From NCBI RefSeq assembly GCF_001982615.1, contig NZ_MLCO01000005.1, forward strand, positions 1 through 64,000: a DNA stretch of 64,000 nucleotides, written 5' to 3'. Every line of letters begins with the position of its first letter. The first letter of the stretch is position 1. Position numbers and translations under genes: made by a program. The stretch is from Teichococcus deserti. Lineage in GTDB: Bacteria; Pseudomonadota; Alphaproteobacteria; Acetobacterales; Acetobacteraceae. A model generated the notes under the pieces. It was given only the letters and a program-made list of their open reading frames with translations. It made no database searches and had not been told where the DNA came from. Below are positions 2,811 through 58,260 of the stretch, one piece after another.

Positions 2811-4622
2811 GCACCACCACGCATCATCGCCATAGGCGTAAGCGGGCGCGCGGGCGGGCCACGCATAACGGTCCCGCAGCGCCGTCAGCCGGTTCGGCTC
2901 ATAATACGACGGGACCGTCAGCCACTGCCATTGCAAGGCACGGTCCAAAAGCCGCGCGGAACGCTGCATCTCATCCACACCCTCGGCCCGCACCAACCGG
3001 TCCAGCAGCGTGTCGACGCCAGGCGACGCAAACCCCGAGAGGTTGTTGGGACCGCCGGACCCCCAGTAGCTGCGCTGCTCCTCCCCGGGCCAGGAGGAGC
3101 CGATGATGAAACGATAGATCAGGTCGAACTCGCGCTTCCGCTGCCGGTCGGTGAAGGCTGCGGCGTCCAGCACCTCCAGCGACGGCTCGATGCCGATGCG
3201 CCGCAAGCCCCGGAACCACACCGTCAGCAACGCCTGCTGCGCCGTCGACTGCGCCAGCACGCTGAAGCGCAGCGGCTGCCCCGTCGCGCGGTTCACCATG
3301 CGGCCGCGATCGTCCAGCACCCAGCCGGCCTGCTCCAGCAACGCGATCGCCCGTTCAAGCGCCGCGCGATCCCGCCCGCTGCCATCGGTCGGCGGCGGCG
3401 TCCAGGCGGCGTCATAGGCCTCGGGCGGGAACAGCTCCGGGAATTCGGCCATGGCGGCGCGCTCGGCCGCGTCCGGCGCCTCGACGGCCGCCATCGGCGA
3501 ATTGCTGAAATAGGAAGAGGTCCGGCGGAAGGCGCCGTGGAACAGCGCCTTGTTGGCCCAGTCGAAATCCAGCAGCCCGGCCAGCGCCTGCCGCACGCGC
3601 ACGTCGTCGAAGGGCGCGCGCCGCAGGTTGAAGGCGAAGCCGTTCATCCCCGTGACATACCAATGCGGCTGCTCGACCTTGCGCACCGCGCCGCTGCGCA
3701 CGGCTTCCGCGTCATAGCCGGTGGCCCAGCGCCGCGGATCCATCTCCCGCATCATGTCGGCGCGGTCGGCCAGCACGGCTTCCAGCGCGGCCACGCGGTC
3801 GCGCAGGTACTGCACCTCCATCCGCGCGATGGTCCAGCGGCCGCGGCCCGTCGGCAGGTCGCGCGCCCACCAGTCCTCGACCCGGTCGAAGACCACGCGG
3901 CGCCCGGGCTCGACCGCGGTCACGCGATAGGGCCCGCTGCCCAGCGGCGGGTCCATGGTCAGCGCGGTGAAGTCGCGGCCTTCCCAATAATGCTTCGGCA
4001 GCACGAAGAAGCTGCCCAGCCGCGTCATCCGGTCGCGCGCCTGGGTCGGCGTCGTGCCCGCGGGCAGGTGAAAGGCGACGCTCCGGCCGTCGAGTTGCTC
4101 CAGCCGCACGCCCGCCATGGCGGCGCGGAAATGCGGCCTTCCCTTGCTCCCCAGCAGCGTCGCGCTGAACACCAGGTCCTCGGCGGTGACCGGCCTGCCG
4201 TCATGCCAGCGCGCCTGCTCCCGCAGCGTGAAGCGGATCACGCCGGCGGCCTCGTCGAGCTCCGCCTTCTCGGCCAGATGGCCATAGGCGACCAACGGCT
4301 CTTCCGGGCTGTCGACCATCAGGGTCTCGTAGACCCAGCTCCAAACGCCCATCACGAAGCGGCCGCGCAGGGTGAAGGGGTTCAGCGTGTCGAAGCTGCC
4401 CTGCAGCACGCTGCGCAGGCTGCAGGACCCCAGCGGCGCGTCCGGGTTCACATGCGGGAAATGCGAAAACCCCTCGGGCAGGGCAGGGGTGCCGTGCAGC
4501 GAGAAGGCGTCGCTCCGCGCGAGCGTCGCGGGCGCCGTGGCCAGGCTGGCCAGCAGGACGGCGGAGAGCGCCTTGCCGAGCCCCCGCTTTCGCGGATACA
4601 TGCGGTTGAGAGTCATTCTCAT
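2799..4622 (-). CDS. YejA-type ABC transporter solute-binding protein (family 5)
   Basis: About 607 residues. A signal peptide (RKRGLGKALSAVLLASLATAPATLA) leads into a YejA-like opening, FSLHGTPALPEGFSHFPHVNPDAPLG, then FDTLNPFTLRG and the family-5 core WHDGRPVTAEDLVFSA, GSGPYRVTAVEPGRRVVF and NNLSGFASPGVDTLLDRLV. YejA proteins deliver oligopeptides such as microcin C to YejBEF. The start is uncertain: ATG 4622 has GGGGAG just upstream, while ATG 4616 and ATG 4601 are alternatives and the last begins the signal peptide directly. The gene is divergent from the permeases. A Fur-like palindrome overlaps its start and the receptor is convergent, so its ligand may be haem or an iron complex rather than a peptide. 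Confidence 0.85.
   Translation of the reverse strand: MRMTLNRMYPRKRGLGKALSAVLLASLATAPATLARSDAFSLHGTPALPEGFSHFPHVNPDAPLGSCSLRSVLQGSFDTLNPFTLRGRFVMGVWSWVYETLMVDSPEEPLVAYGHLAEKAELDEAAGVIRFTLREQARWHDGRPVTAEDLVFSATLLGSKGRPHFRAAMAGVRLEQLDGRSVAFHLPAGTTPTQARDRMTRLGSFFVLPKHYWEGRDFTALTMDPPLGSGPYRVTAVEPGRRVVFDRVEDWWARDLPTGRGRWTIARMEVQYLRDRVAALEAVLADRADMMREMDPRRWATGYDAEAVRSGAVRKVEQPHWYVTGMNGFAFNLRRAPFDDVRVRQALAGLLDFDWANKALFHGAFRRTSSYFSNSPMAAVEAPDAAERAAMAEFPELFPPEAYDAAWTPPPTDGSGRDRAALERAIALLEQAGWVLDDRGRMVNRATGQPLRFSVLAQSTAQQALLTVWFRGLRRIGIEPSLEVLDAAAFTDRQRKREFDLIYRFIIGSSWPGEEQRSYWGSGGPNNLSGFASPGVDTLLDRLVRAEGVDEMQRSARLLDRALQWQWLTVPSYYEPNRLTALRDRYAWPARAPAYAYGDDAWWCKEN
4607..4621. promoter_or_regulatory. Fur-box-like palindrome at the divergent transporter start
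   Basis: On the minus strand the sequence reads TGAGAATGACTCTCA, one base away from a perfect TGAGAAT-n-ATTCTCA palindrome. It overlaps the proposed ATG of the binding-protein gene and lies 43 bp before the divergent permease start, so one bound Fur dimer could control both directions. Position inside a start codon is unusual and suggests that either the binding protein starts at 4601 or repression acts over the initiation region. Confidence 0.6.
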
Positions 4623-4663
4623 ATTCTCCCCGCCCACCGCGCAACCCGCAAGAGCCTCGCCGC

Positions 4664-56723: not shown

Positions 56724-57797
56724 ATGTCGCGCAAGTACCGTATCGCCGTCGTCCCCGGGGATGGCATCGGCAAGGAGACCGTGCCGGAGGGGCTGCGCGT
56801 GCTGGACGCCGCTGCCCGCCGCTTCGGCTTTGAGATCAGCCTGAGCCATTACGACTGGTCCTGCGAGACCTATGCCCAGACCGGCCGCATGATGCCGGAG
56901 GACGGCATCGAGCAGCTGCGCGACAGCGACAGCATCTTCCTCGGCGCCGTGGGCTGGCCCGGCGTGCCCGATCACGTCTCGCTCTGGGGCCTGCTGATCC
57001 CGATCCGCCGCGAGTTCGACCAGTATATCAGCCTGCGCCCCTGCAAGCTGATGCCGGGCGCCAAGACGCCGCTGGCGAATCGCACCCCGGCCGAGATCGA
57101 CTTCTACGTCGTCCGCGAGAACACCGAGGGCGAGTACTCGTCGTCGGGCGGAAAGATGTTCGCCGGCACCGACCGGGAATTCGTGTCGCAGGATGCCGTC
57201 TTCACCCGCAAGGGCGTCGACCGCGTGCTGAAATATGCCTTCGAGCTGGCCCAGACCCGGCCGCGCAAGAAGGTGACCAGCGCCACCAAGTCGAACGGCA
57301 TCATCCACACCATGCCCTACTGGGACGAGCGCTTCGCCGAGATGGCGAAGAACTACCCGGGCATCGCCACCGACCAGTTCCACATCGACATCCTCTGCGC
57401 GCATTTCGTGCAGCATCCCGACTGGTTCGACGTGGTCGTCGGCTCCAACCTGTTCGGCGACATCCTGTCGGATCTGGGCCCGGCGGTGGCGGGCTCGATC
57501 GGCATTGCGCCGTCCGCCAACATCAACCCCGAGAAGGCGCATCCCTCGATGTTCGAGCCGGTGCACGGCTCGGCCCCTGACATCGCCGGCAAGCACATCT
57601 GCAACCCGATCGGCCAGATCTGGTCCGGCGCCATGATGCTGGAGCATCTGGGCGAGAAGGAGGCCGCCGACGCCATCACCCGCAGCATCGAGAAGCTGCT
57701 GGCCGAGGGCGGCCCGCGCACCCGCGACATGGGCGGCCAGGCGGCCACCTCCGACGTGGGCAAGGCGCTGGCCGAGGCGATCGCCCAGGGGGGCTGA
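56724..57797 (+). CDS. Tartrate dehydrogenase / decarboxylase-type beta-decarboxylating dehydrogenase
   Basis: 357 residues of the isocitrate/isopropylmalate dehydrogenase fold. KYRIAVVPGDGIGKETVPEGLRVLDA, LLIPIRREFDQYISLRPCKLMPG, VVRENTEGEYSSSGGKMF, SATKSNGI and VGSNLFGDILSDLGPAVAGSIGIAPSANINPEK correspond to substrate, metal and NAD sites. The LLIPIRREFDQY form points to tartrate/D-malate dehydrogenases rather than leuB. It is monocistronic; GGAGGGAAG precedes the ATG. Confidence 0.87.
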   Translation: MSRKYRIAVVPGDGIGKETVPEGLRVLDAAARRFGFEISLSHYDWSCETYAQTGRMMPEDGIEQLRDSDSIFLGAVGWPGVPDHVSLWGLLIPIRREFDQYISLRPCKLMPGAKTPLANRTPAEIDFYVVRENTEGEYSSSGGKMFAGTDREFVSQDAVFTRKGVDRVLKYAFELAQTRPRKKVTSATKSNGIIHTMPYWDERFAEMAKNYPGIATDQFHIDILCAHFVQHPDWFDVVVGSNLFGDILSDLGPAVAGSIGIAPSANINPEKAHPSMFEPVHGSAPDIAGKHICNPIGQIWSGAMMLEHLGEKEAADAITRSIEKLLAEGGPRTRDMGGQAATSDVGKALAEAIAQGG

Positions 57798-57867
57798 GTA
57801 GGGGGCTGAGTGGAGGCCTGAGTCGCCGTTGCGCGGCAAGGGCTTGCGGGGGAGGTGGAGACCAAAC

Positions 57868-57939
57868 TTGAACCCTCTCCCGGATGGGCCTATAAAACGG
57901 CGGGATGAGTTGCGAGTTATTCTCAATTGGCTCGCAACT
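57868..57939 (+). promoter_or_regulatory. Promoter and Fur-type operator of the small orphan gene
   Basis: TTGAAC (57868-57873) and TATAAA (57891-57896) with a 17-bp spacer form a good sigma-70 promoter. Just downstream, AGTTGCGAG (57908-57916) and CTCGCAACT (57931-57939) form a perfect 9-bp inverted repeat that encloses TTATTCTCAATTGG. The whole resembles proteobacterial Fur boxes of the TTGCGAATnATTCTCATTTG kind, placed where a bound repressor would block transcription. Confidence 0.65.
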
Positions 57940-57953
57940 GCAGGAGAATGCGG

Positions 57954-58193
57954 ATGGGCAACGACTTCAGCCACATCACCCGCCGTTGTGAGCGGGCTGT
58001 GGTGACCGCGTACCGCGAGCTGCGGGAGACCGGGAACAACGACCTGTCGTCGTTCCGGGCCTGCACGGCGCTGTACCGGATCCACCACCCCGAGGCCTCG
58101 GTGAACGAGGCGCGCCGGCTGGTGTCCGAATGGATCGACCACCATATCGTGCGCGGCGAGGCCGGCCCGACTGACGGCTGCGAATGTCCGTGA
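57954..58193 (+). CDS. Small cytoplasmic protein of unknown function behind a Fur-type operator
   Basis: 79 residues from ATG 57954, with CAGGAG 7 bases upstream; ATG 57948 is too close to that site. The sequence (MGNDFSHITRRCERAVVTAY, FRACTALYRIHHPEASVNEA, RRLVSEWIDHHIVRG, ending CECP) is soluble and helical, with HHPEA, DHH and four Cys in total, which could bind metal. No named family is recognised. The Fur-type operator and a T-tailed terminator show a free-standing, iron-responsive transcription unit. Confidence 0.75.
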   Translation: MGNDFSHITRRCERAVVTAYRELRETGNNDLSSFRACTALYRIHHPEASVNEARRLVSEWIDHHIVRGEAGPTDGCECP

Positions 58194-58236: not shown

Positions 58237-58260
58237 AACCGCCCGCGAGGGCGGTTTTTT
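58237..58260 (+). terminator. Intrinsic terminator of the small orphan gene
   Basis: AACCGCCC (58237-58244) pairs with GGGCGGTT (58249-58256) around GCGA, followed by a six-T run to 58260. It lies 43 bases after the stop codon. Confidence 0.92.

Follow-up and report, generated by a model that had tools for sequence, protein, structure and literature searches.

A conserved Fur-type operator ahead of a small Cys/His protein gene in Teichococcus deserti, a member of an alphaproteobacterial family often encoded behind fur

The window analyzed here is a 64,000-nucleotide stretch of the Teichococcus deserti genome (contig NZ_MLCO01000005.1, positions 1 to 64,000), which carries near its end a gene for a 79-amino acid protein flanked by the elements listed in Table 1. 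The original prediction had read this region as a compact unit with a well-spaced promoter, a Fur-like palindrome directly downstream of the -10 hexamer, a ribosome-binding site and an intrinsic terminator, and each of these elements is present in the sequence. The built-in sigma-70 scan reported no site matching the promoter pair at its default threshold, and the terminator scan, also at its default threshold, missed the hairpin; since neither default scan detected them, promoter and terminator were judged from sequence and folding, with the terminator fold reaching a z-score of -3.3 (72 nt folded). The Fur box begins 12 nt past the -10 hexamer and is therefore expected to cover the transcription start. 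The extra half-site downstream of the box might either lengthen the operator or fold into an RNA hairpin; folded as RNA, the inverted repeat at 57908-57939 gives a z-score of -2.1, and the hairpin is a side possibility only. Of the 77 homologous loci that carry a box, 36 fit a loose half-site pattern, a count made with no control run. The further claim of a free-standing unit is fair within the window, but 70 of the 92 homologous loci have a dehydrogenase gene on the same strand, no more than 700 nt upstream.

Table 1. Features at and around the small protein gene (positions in the window).
Feature	Position	Strand	Basis or remark
Tartrate dehydrogenase / isopropylmalate dehydrogenase type (TTC) gene, conserved upstream neighbour	56724-57797	+	NCBIfam TIGR02089, 1.2e-167
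-35-like TTGAAC	57868-57873	+	Read from sequence
-10-like TATAAA, 17-nt spacer from TTGAAC	57891-57896	+	Sequence; below sigma-70 scanner threshold
Fur box GTTGCGAGTTATTCTCAAT, 7-1-7 Fur-type palindrome over the expected transcription start	57909-57927	+	26.8 bits
Extra half-site CTCGCAACT	57931-57939	+	Perfect 9-bp inverted repeat with AGTTGCGAG at 57908-57916
Ribosome-binding site AGGAG	57942-57946	+	Sequence
79-amino acid protein gene, ATG at 57954, stop ends at 58193	57954-58193	+	
Intrinsic terminator: hairpin 58237-58256 (AACCGCCC-GCGA-GGGCGGTT), then T run to 58260	58237-58260	+	By eye and folding

The encoded protein has the HHPEA and DHH motifs, the four cysteines (residues 12, 37, 76, and 78) and the CECP end that had been described for it. 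Compared with eight homologues of 92-97% protein identity, the gene shows 17-35 differences at third codon positions, 2-5 at first positions and 0-1 at second positions, and compared with an 85% identical homologue the counts are 32, 7, and 5, respectively (one further homologue was skipped for its length). This substitution pattern indicates that the 79-codon frame is under protein-level selection. An AlphaFold2 model of the window protein predicts three helices (residues 3-25, 30-44, and 50-66; mean pLDDT 79.8, pTM 0.67) followed by a C-terminal tail of low confidence, and no signal peptide is visible by eye. A Foldseek search with this model returned a best E-value of 2.1. Matches to unrelated helical proteins in the VIA comparison (top Z 8.2) lie within the range of common helical arrangements and were given no weight; the lack of a fold match excludes nothing. 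At the sequence level, the window protein has no match in Pfam, NCBIfam, or PDB and a best E-value of 0.03 in PHROGs, four relatives have no match in NCBIfam, a family profile against PDB gives a best E-value of 0.79, and 35 aligned members give nothing convincing in Pfam (seven families hit by one member each, best E-value 0.0023).

The protein had been called an orphan, a label that does not hold. Its best named homologue, from Roseomonas sp. 18066, is 97% identical. The gene is present in 103 of 120 sampled genomes of the family, and 140 of the 150 genomes sampled from the order carry it, all 140 being Acetobacteraceae (the latter sample overlaps the former). Relatives extend across the class, with matches in 27 of 289 genomes using a sequence query and in 43 of 385 using a profile query, four of these 43 belonging to the protein's own family; weak hits in three class genomes (G301, G384, and G424) may be spurious. 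In a sample of the phylum, 6 of 299 genomes match, four of them in the class and two with marginal partial hits, and a plasmid search with a fur-linked member gave no match.

An alignment of 35 members defines a core in which Cys12, His45, and Pro46 occur in 35/35 and Trp60 in 34/35; two hits outside this alignment, both missed by tblastn, lack the proline (L134) or the cysteine (L135). The window protein carries this Cys12, His45-Pro46, and Trp60 core together with the three predicted helices. The core is not universal, as one fur-linked member (L199) has HCP and further members (L206, L207, L209, the weak L228, and L238-L242) depart from it. Within the Acetobacteraceae, 75 members of 72-97% identity keep Cys12, Cys37, His44, His45, His63, His64, Cys76, and Cys78 invariant, and the C-terminal C-x-C is missing from L269-L272, four of six loci fetched mainly for early-ending matches. 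The members encoded behind fur have instead a cysteine pair just ahead of the core (22 of 31 have C-x-C, and 27 of 31 have either C-x-C or CC), together with HHP in 29/31 and a C-terminal His (20/31) or Asn (9/31). A cysteine pair that changes place around a Cys/His core suggests a metal site. Taken from these comparisons, the family would consist of small (roughly 60-90 amino acids), probably cytosolic alphaproteobacterial proteins with three predicted helices, a near-invariant cysteine and a His-Pro motif.

To score operators, we used a matrix built from nine other Fur-type sites of the same genome, with the window site excluded. These nine were picked from 23 inspected loci for genes that looked iron-related by eye, and the matrix is not fully independent, because the pattern used to find sites resembled the window's own box. 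That 15-base pattern, TGCGARTNATTCTCA, gave 46 strand-hits at 34 places in the genome when at most two mismatches were allowed, vs. 2 for the reversed pattern. The neighbours of the nine boxes are a BFD-like [2Fe-2S] protein, three TonB-dependent receptors (one of them, at L194, cut off by the locus end and scoring under its NCBIfam cut-off), three ECF sigma factors, a solute-binding protein and a multicopper oxidase, the last two not proven iron genes; the remaining inspected loci adjoin genes that were not recognised as iron genes. One own-genome locus (contig C141, L178:956-1516, minus strand) holds a 187-amino acid ORF that has a Fur-type box and matches no NCBIfam model.

Our analysis of 92 distinct 150-nt upstream regions of Acetobacteraceae homologues (identical upstreams and one short locus dropped) found a box of at least 14 bits in 77, including the window's own, as opposed to 0/92 downstream control stretches and 0.16% of mononucleotide-shuffled upstreams. 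This set is biased toward close relatives, as it combines the best 30 loci of one search with the best 80 of 315 of another. Fifteen of the 92 upstreams have no box, and among 20 further hand-chosen loci the operator is weaker, with 8 reaching 14 bits and 10 reaching 12 bits, two of the 20 (L250 and L263) probably having a wrongly guessed start codon. Of the 77 boxed loci, 59 have a TTGA[AT][CG] element ahead of the box at a nearly fixed distance (median 38 nt, 10th-90th percentile 36-42; 41 in the window). Homologues thus retain the operator, and its conservation among them supports the core of the original prediction, namely expression of a small protein gene from a Fur operator; from the sequence evidence, control of the 79-amino acid gene by Fur can be regarded as well supported.

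Only three sites of at least 20 bits occur in the 64-kb window (at 407, 4605, and 57909), and 20 mononucleotide-shuffled windows, scored on one strand, contain none. The box at 407-425 (24.0 bits) lies ahead of where ORF 384-2759, a gene that by eye looks like a TonB receptor, likely starts, and that at 4605-4623 (25.7 bits) separates divergent genes which by eye look like those of a peptide/siderophore-type ABC transporter. A separate feature of the boxed loci is a second palindrome, CTTGAACGnnCGTTCAAG, over the -35 element in 26/77 (e.g., L033, L038, and L090; at least 13/16 matches, counted with no control), which is degenerate in the window at about 57867-57884 and looks like the operator of another, perhaps TetR-type, regulator.

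Two genes of the FUR family were found in the genome. One encodes Fur, whose best NCBIfam match is a Fur model at a score under its cut-off and which is the only iron-type FUR-family protein found; its gene lies on a different contig from the 79-amino acid gene. The second, at C444:92543-92920, about 28 kb past the window, encodes a protein with CxxC pairs beside a gene for a His-rich CobW-type GTPase, and judged by eye its product is probably Zur. Irr was considered as the iron regulator and rejected, as the genome has no second iron-type FUR protein.

The distribution of Fur itself was compared with that of the small protein, the non-carriers being examined in the 150-genome sample of the order. 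All 140 carriers have a close ortholog of the window genome's Fur (E-value at most 3.9e-59), as opposed to 1 of the 10 non-carriers (G066); six non-carriers (G029, G068, G096, G190, G199, and G223) have a divergent Fur of 49-62% identity, and three (G128, G144, and G155) have distant Fur matches only or no match. The association gives a Fisher p of 1e-13, to be read in light of the relatedness of these genomes, with the 10 non-carriers falling in six genera. Only in g30 and g102 are both the gene and Fur absent in a genus whose other species have both. On these comparisons, absence of the gene appears to track absence or divergence of Fur; common descent could account for every carrier having Fur.

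Outside the Acetobacteraceae, the family is tied to fur by position. In 31 distinct loci the family gene (X) lies behind fur on the same strand, and the Fur proteins of these loci are 49-61% identical to that of the window genome. In the profile search of the class, X lies directly behind fur in 19 of 39 genomes outside the protein's own family, drawn from 10 families (two weak-hit genomes among the 39, G384 and G424, were not fetched), and in one order 15 of 16 matching genomes are fur-linked, four of the genomes being shared with the former count. A start codon for X falls between -32 and +13 nt of the fur stop in 26/31 loci, often overlapping it, and such close or overlapping spacing may indicate translational coupling. 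A search for the following gene in 26 of the 31 loci yielded 20 candidates of many kinds on either strand, with L202 and L205 sharing theirs; these varied downstream genes suggest that it is the fur-X pair itself that is kept. An example is a plasmid record of Azospirillum brasilense Sp7 (NZ_CP012915.1), in which a fur gene whose product is 64% identical ends at L243:3923 and the family gene follows directly at 3923-4171.

The window genome does not have the fur-X arrangement, and Fur is absent from the flanks of the 92 Acetobacteraceae loci. Two other Acetobacteraceae (G166 and G204, with near-identical loci) do have it, and in them a Fur box of 27 bits precedes fur. Of the 31 loci outside the Acetobacteraceae, only three (L129, L132, and L220) show a box of at least 14 bits ahead of fur when scored with the matrix from the window genome.

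The unlinked relatives comprise 38 loci, own-family and weak ones included, and many have no readable context. One paralogue (L232) lies between genes for a CsoR-type metal repressor (PF02583) and a cation efflux (CDF) protein (PF01545), and by eye the same repressor end lies upstream of the paralogues at L231 and L233-L236. Another paralogue (L201) follows a gene for MntP (PF02659), and one relative (L122) follows a 2Fe-2S ferredoxin-like gene whose best NCBIfam match is below its cut-off, with L125 similar by eye. Metal and redox handling is the theme of the readable contexts. By eye and unscored, TTGATnnnnATCAA-like sites, which we take to be an FNR-type motif, occur upstream of six relatives (L116, L117, L121, L135, L206, and L209), which suggests oxygen control in those lineages; upstream of another (L118) we saw, again by eye and unscored, TTAGAATCGTTCTAG, which presumably resembles an Irr (ICE) box.

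Several known small proteins invite comparison. Bfd, the BFD-like [2Fe-2S] protein (PF04324), is likewise small and cysteine-containing, and its gene in this genome (L193) has a Fur box like that of the window, but it belongs to a different sequence family, as the 79-amino acid protein has no Pfam match. The CsoR/FrmR metal-sensitive repressors (PF02583) are small, helical, metal-handling proteins, as the present family is proposed to be, and a paralogue follows one of them; however, none of the 35 aligned members matches PF02583, and the VIA comparison gives a Z of only 3.4-3.7 over 49 residues. Small proteins that belong to metal regulons have precedents, among them MntS and FbpA, FbpB, and FbpC. 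MntS of Escherichia coli is a small protein of the manganese regulon that is made when the metal is scarce, helps deliver it to enzymes and may inhibit the exporter MntP (PMC4361602). The placement of one relative behind mntP recalls this system, whereas linkage to fur, conserved Cys/His residues and a different metal and regulator set the present family apart from MntS. FbpA, FbpB, and FbpC of Bacillus subtilis are Fur-regulated small basic proteins suggested to act as RNA chaperones for the sRNA FsrA (PMC7430163, in excerpt). They share with the present protein small size and Fur control, but that excerpt makes no mention of fur linkage or of a Cys/His signature for them. Our searches of the open-licence PMC literature found, among the matches listed, no paper on a small-protein family tied to fur.

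Comparison shows a family, a conserved operator, linkage to fur, joint absence with Fur and paralogues in metal-export loci, and we favor, with a probability of about 0.6, the reading that the protein is a Fur-controlled, probably metal-binding accessory of the Fur circuit and of iron homeostasis, with Fe(II) as the first candidate metal. Iron-loaded Fur would sit on the box over the transcription start and repress the single-gene unit, so that the protein would be made when iron is short. It would then bind a metal ion, Fe(II) in the first place, at Cys12/His45 and the cysteine pair, and would either buffer or hand over iron during scarcity or adjust the metal state of Fur; repression, metal binding and action on Fur or the iron pool are what we infer from the comparisons. 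Against this accessory role stand the predicted structure, a plain helical bundle with no fold relative, the homologous and fur-linked loci that lack a box, the members that depart from the core or lack the C-terminal C-x-C, and the many own-genome box sites beside genes with no recognised link to iron.

The adjacency to fur, with overlapping reading frames, and the joint absence with Fur, including genera g30 and g102, also fit a protein that binds Fur itself as an antagonist or co-regulator, made in step with it from fur-X operons or upon a fall in iron, and that closes a feedback loop. We consider this rather unlikely, given that paralogues accompany a CsoR-type repressor of unrelated fold and efflux genes, so that a metal is the likelier common partner than the surface of Fur. 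Somewhat less probable again is a helper of iron sparing or iron-sulfur assembly that is merely Fur-regulated, like other starvation proteins of the regulon: the Fur box resembles that of the BFD-like gene and one relative follows the ferredoxin-like gene (the match below cut-off), but such a role would leave the location behind fur in ten families unexplained. The dehydrogenase next door raises another reading, in which the small protein is a partner of this tartrate/isopropylmalate-type enzyme and the Fur box regulates its metabolism. The enzyme gene is a neighbour in 70/92 loci, and six of the 15 loci without a box have the small gene starting 36-59 nt past the end of the dehydrogenase match. 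However, the box, placed between the two genes, would serve the small gene only, and the 31 distant relatives lie behind fur instead; we regard this partnership as very improbable.

Beyond the accessory role that we favor, it is conceivable, as a tentative proposal, that the family represents an undescribed class of dedicated metalloregulator partners, in which small three-helix Cys/His proteins, produced together with a regulator or under its control, load, strip or buffer the metal of that regulator (Fur here, CsoR-type repressors in the case of the paralogues). Fur is generally regarded as sensing labile Fe(II) directly; if the proposal is true, the cell would gauge its iron via a protein intermediary rather than from free Fe(II). 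Being linked to fur in at least 10 families, absent where a close Fur is absent, and Fur-boxed in one family, these proteins would offer a ready test for metal-regulator helper proteins, and the comparisons give a handle on a gene that is present in most sampled Acetobacteraceae and has no Pfam or NCBIfam model.
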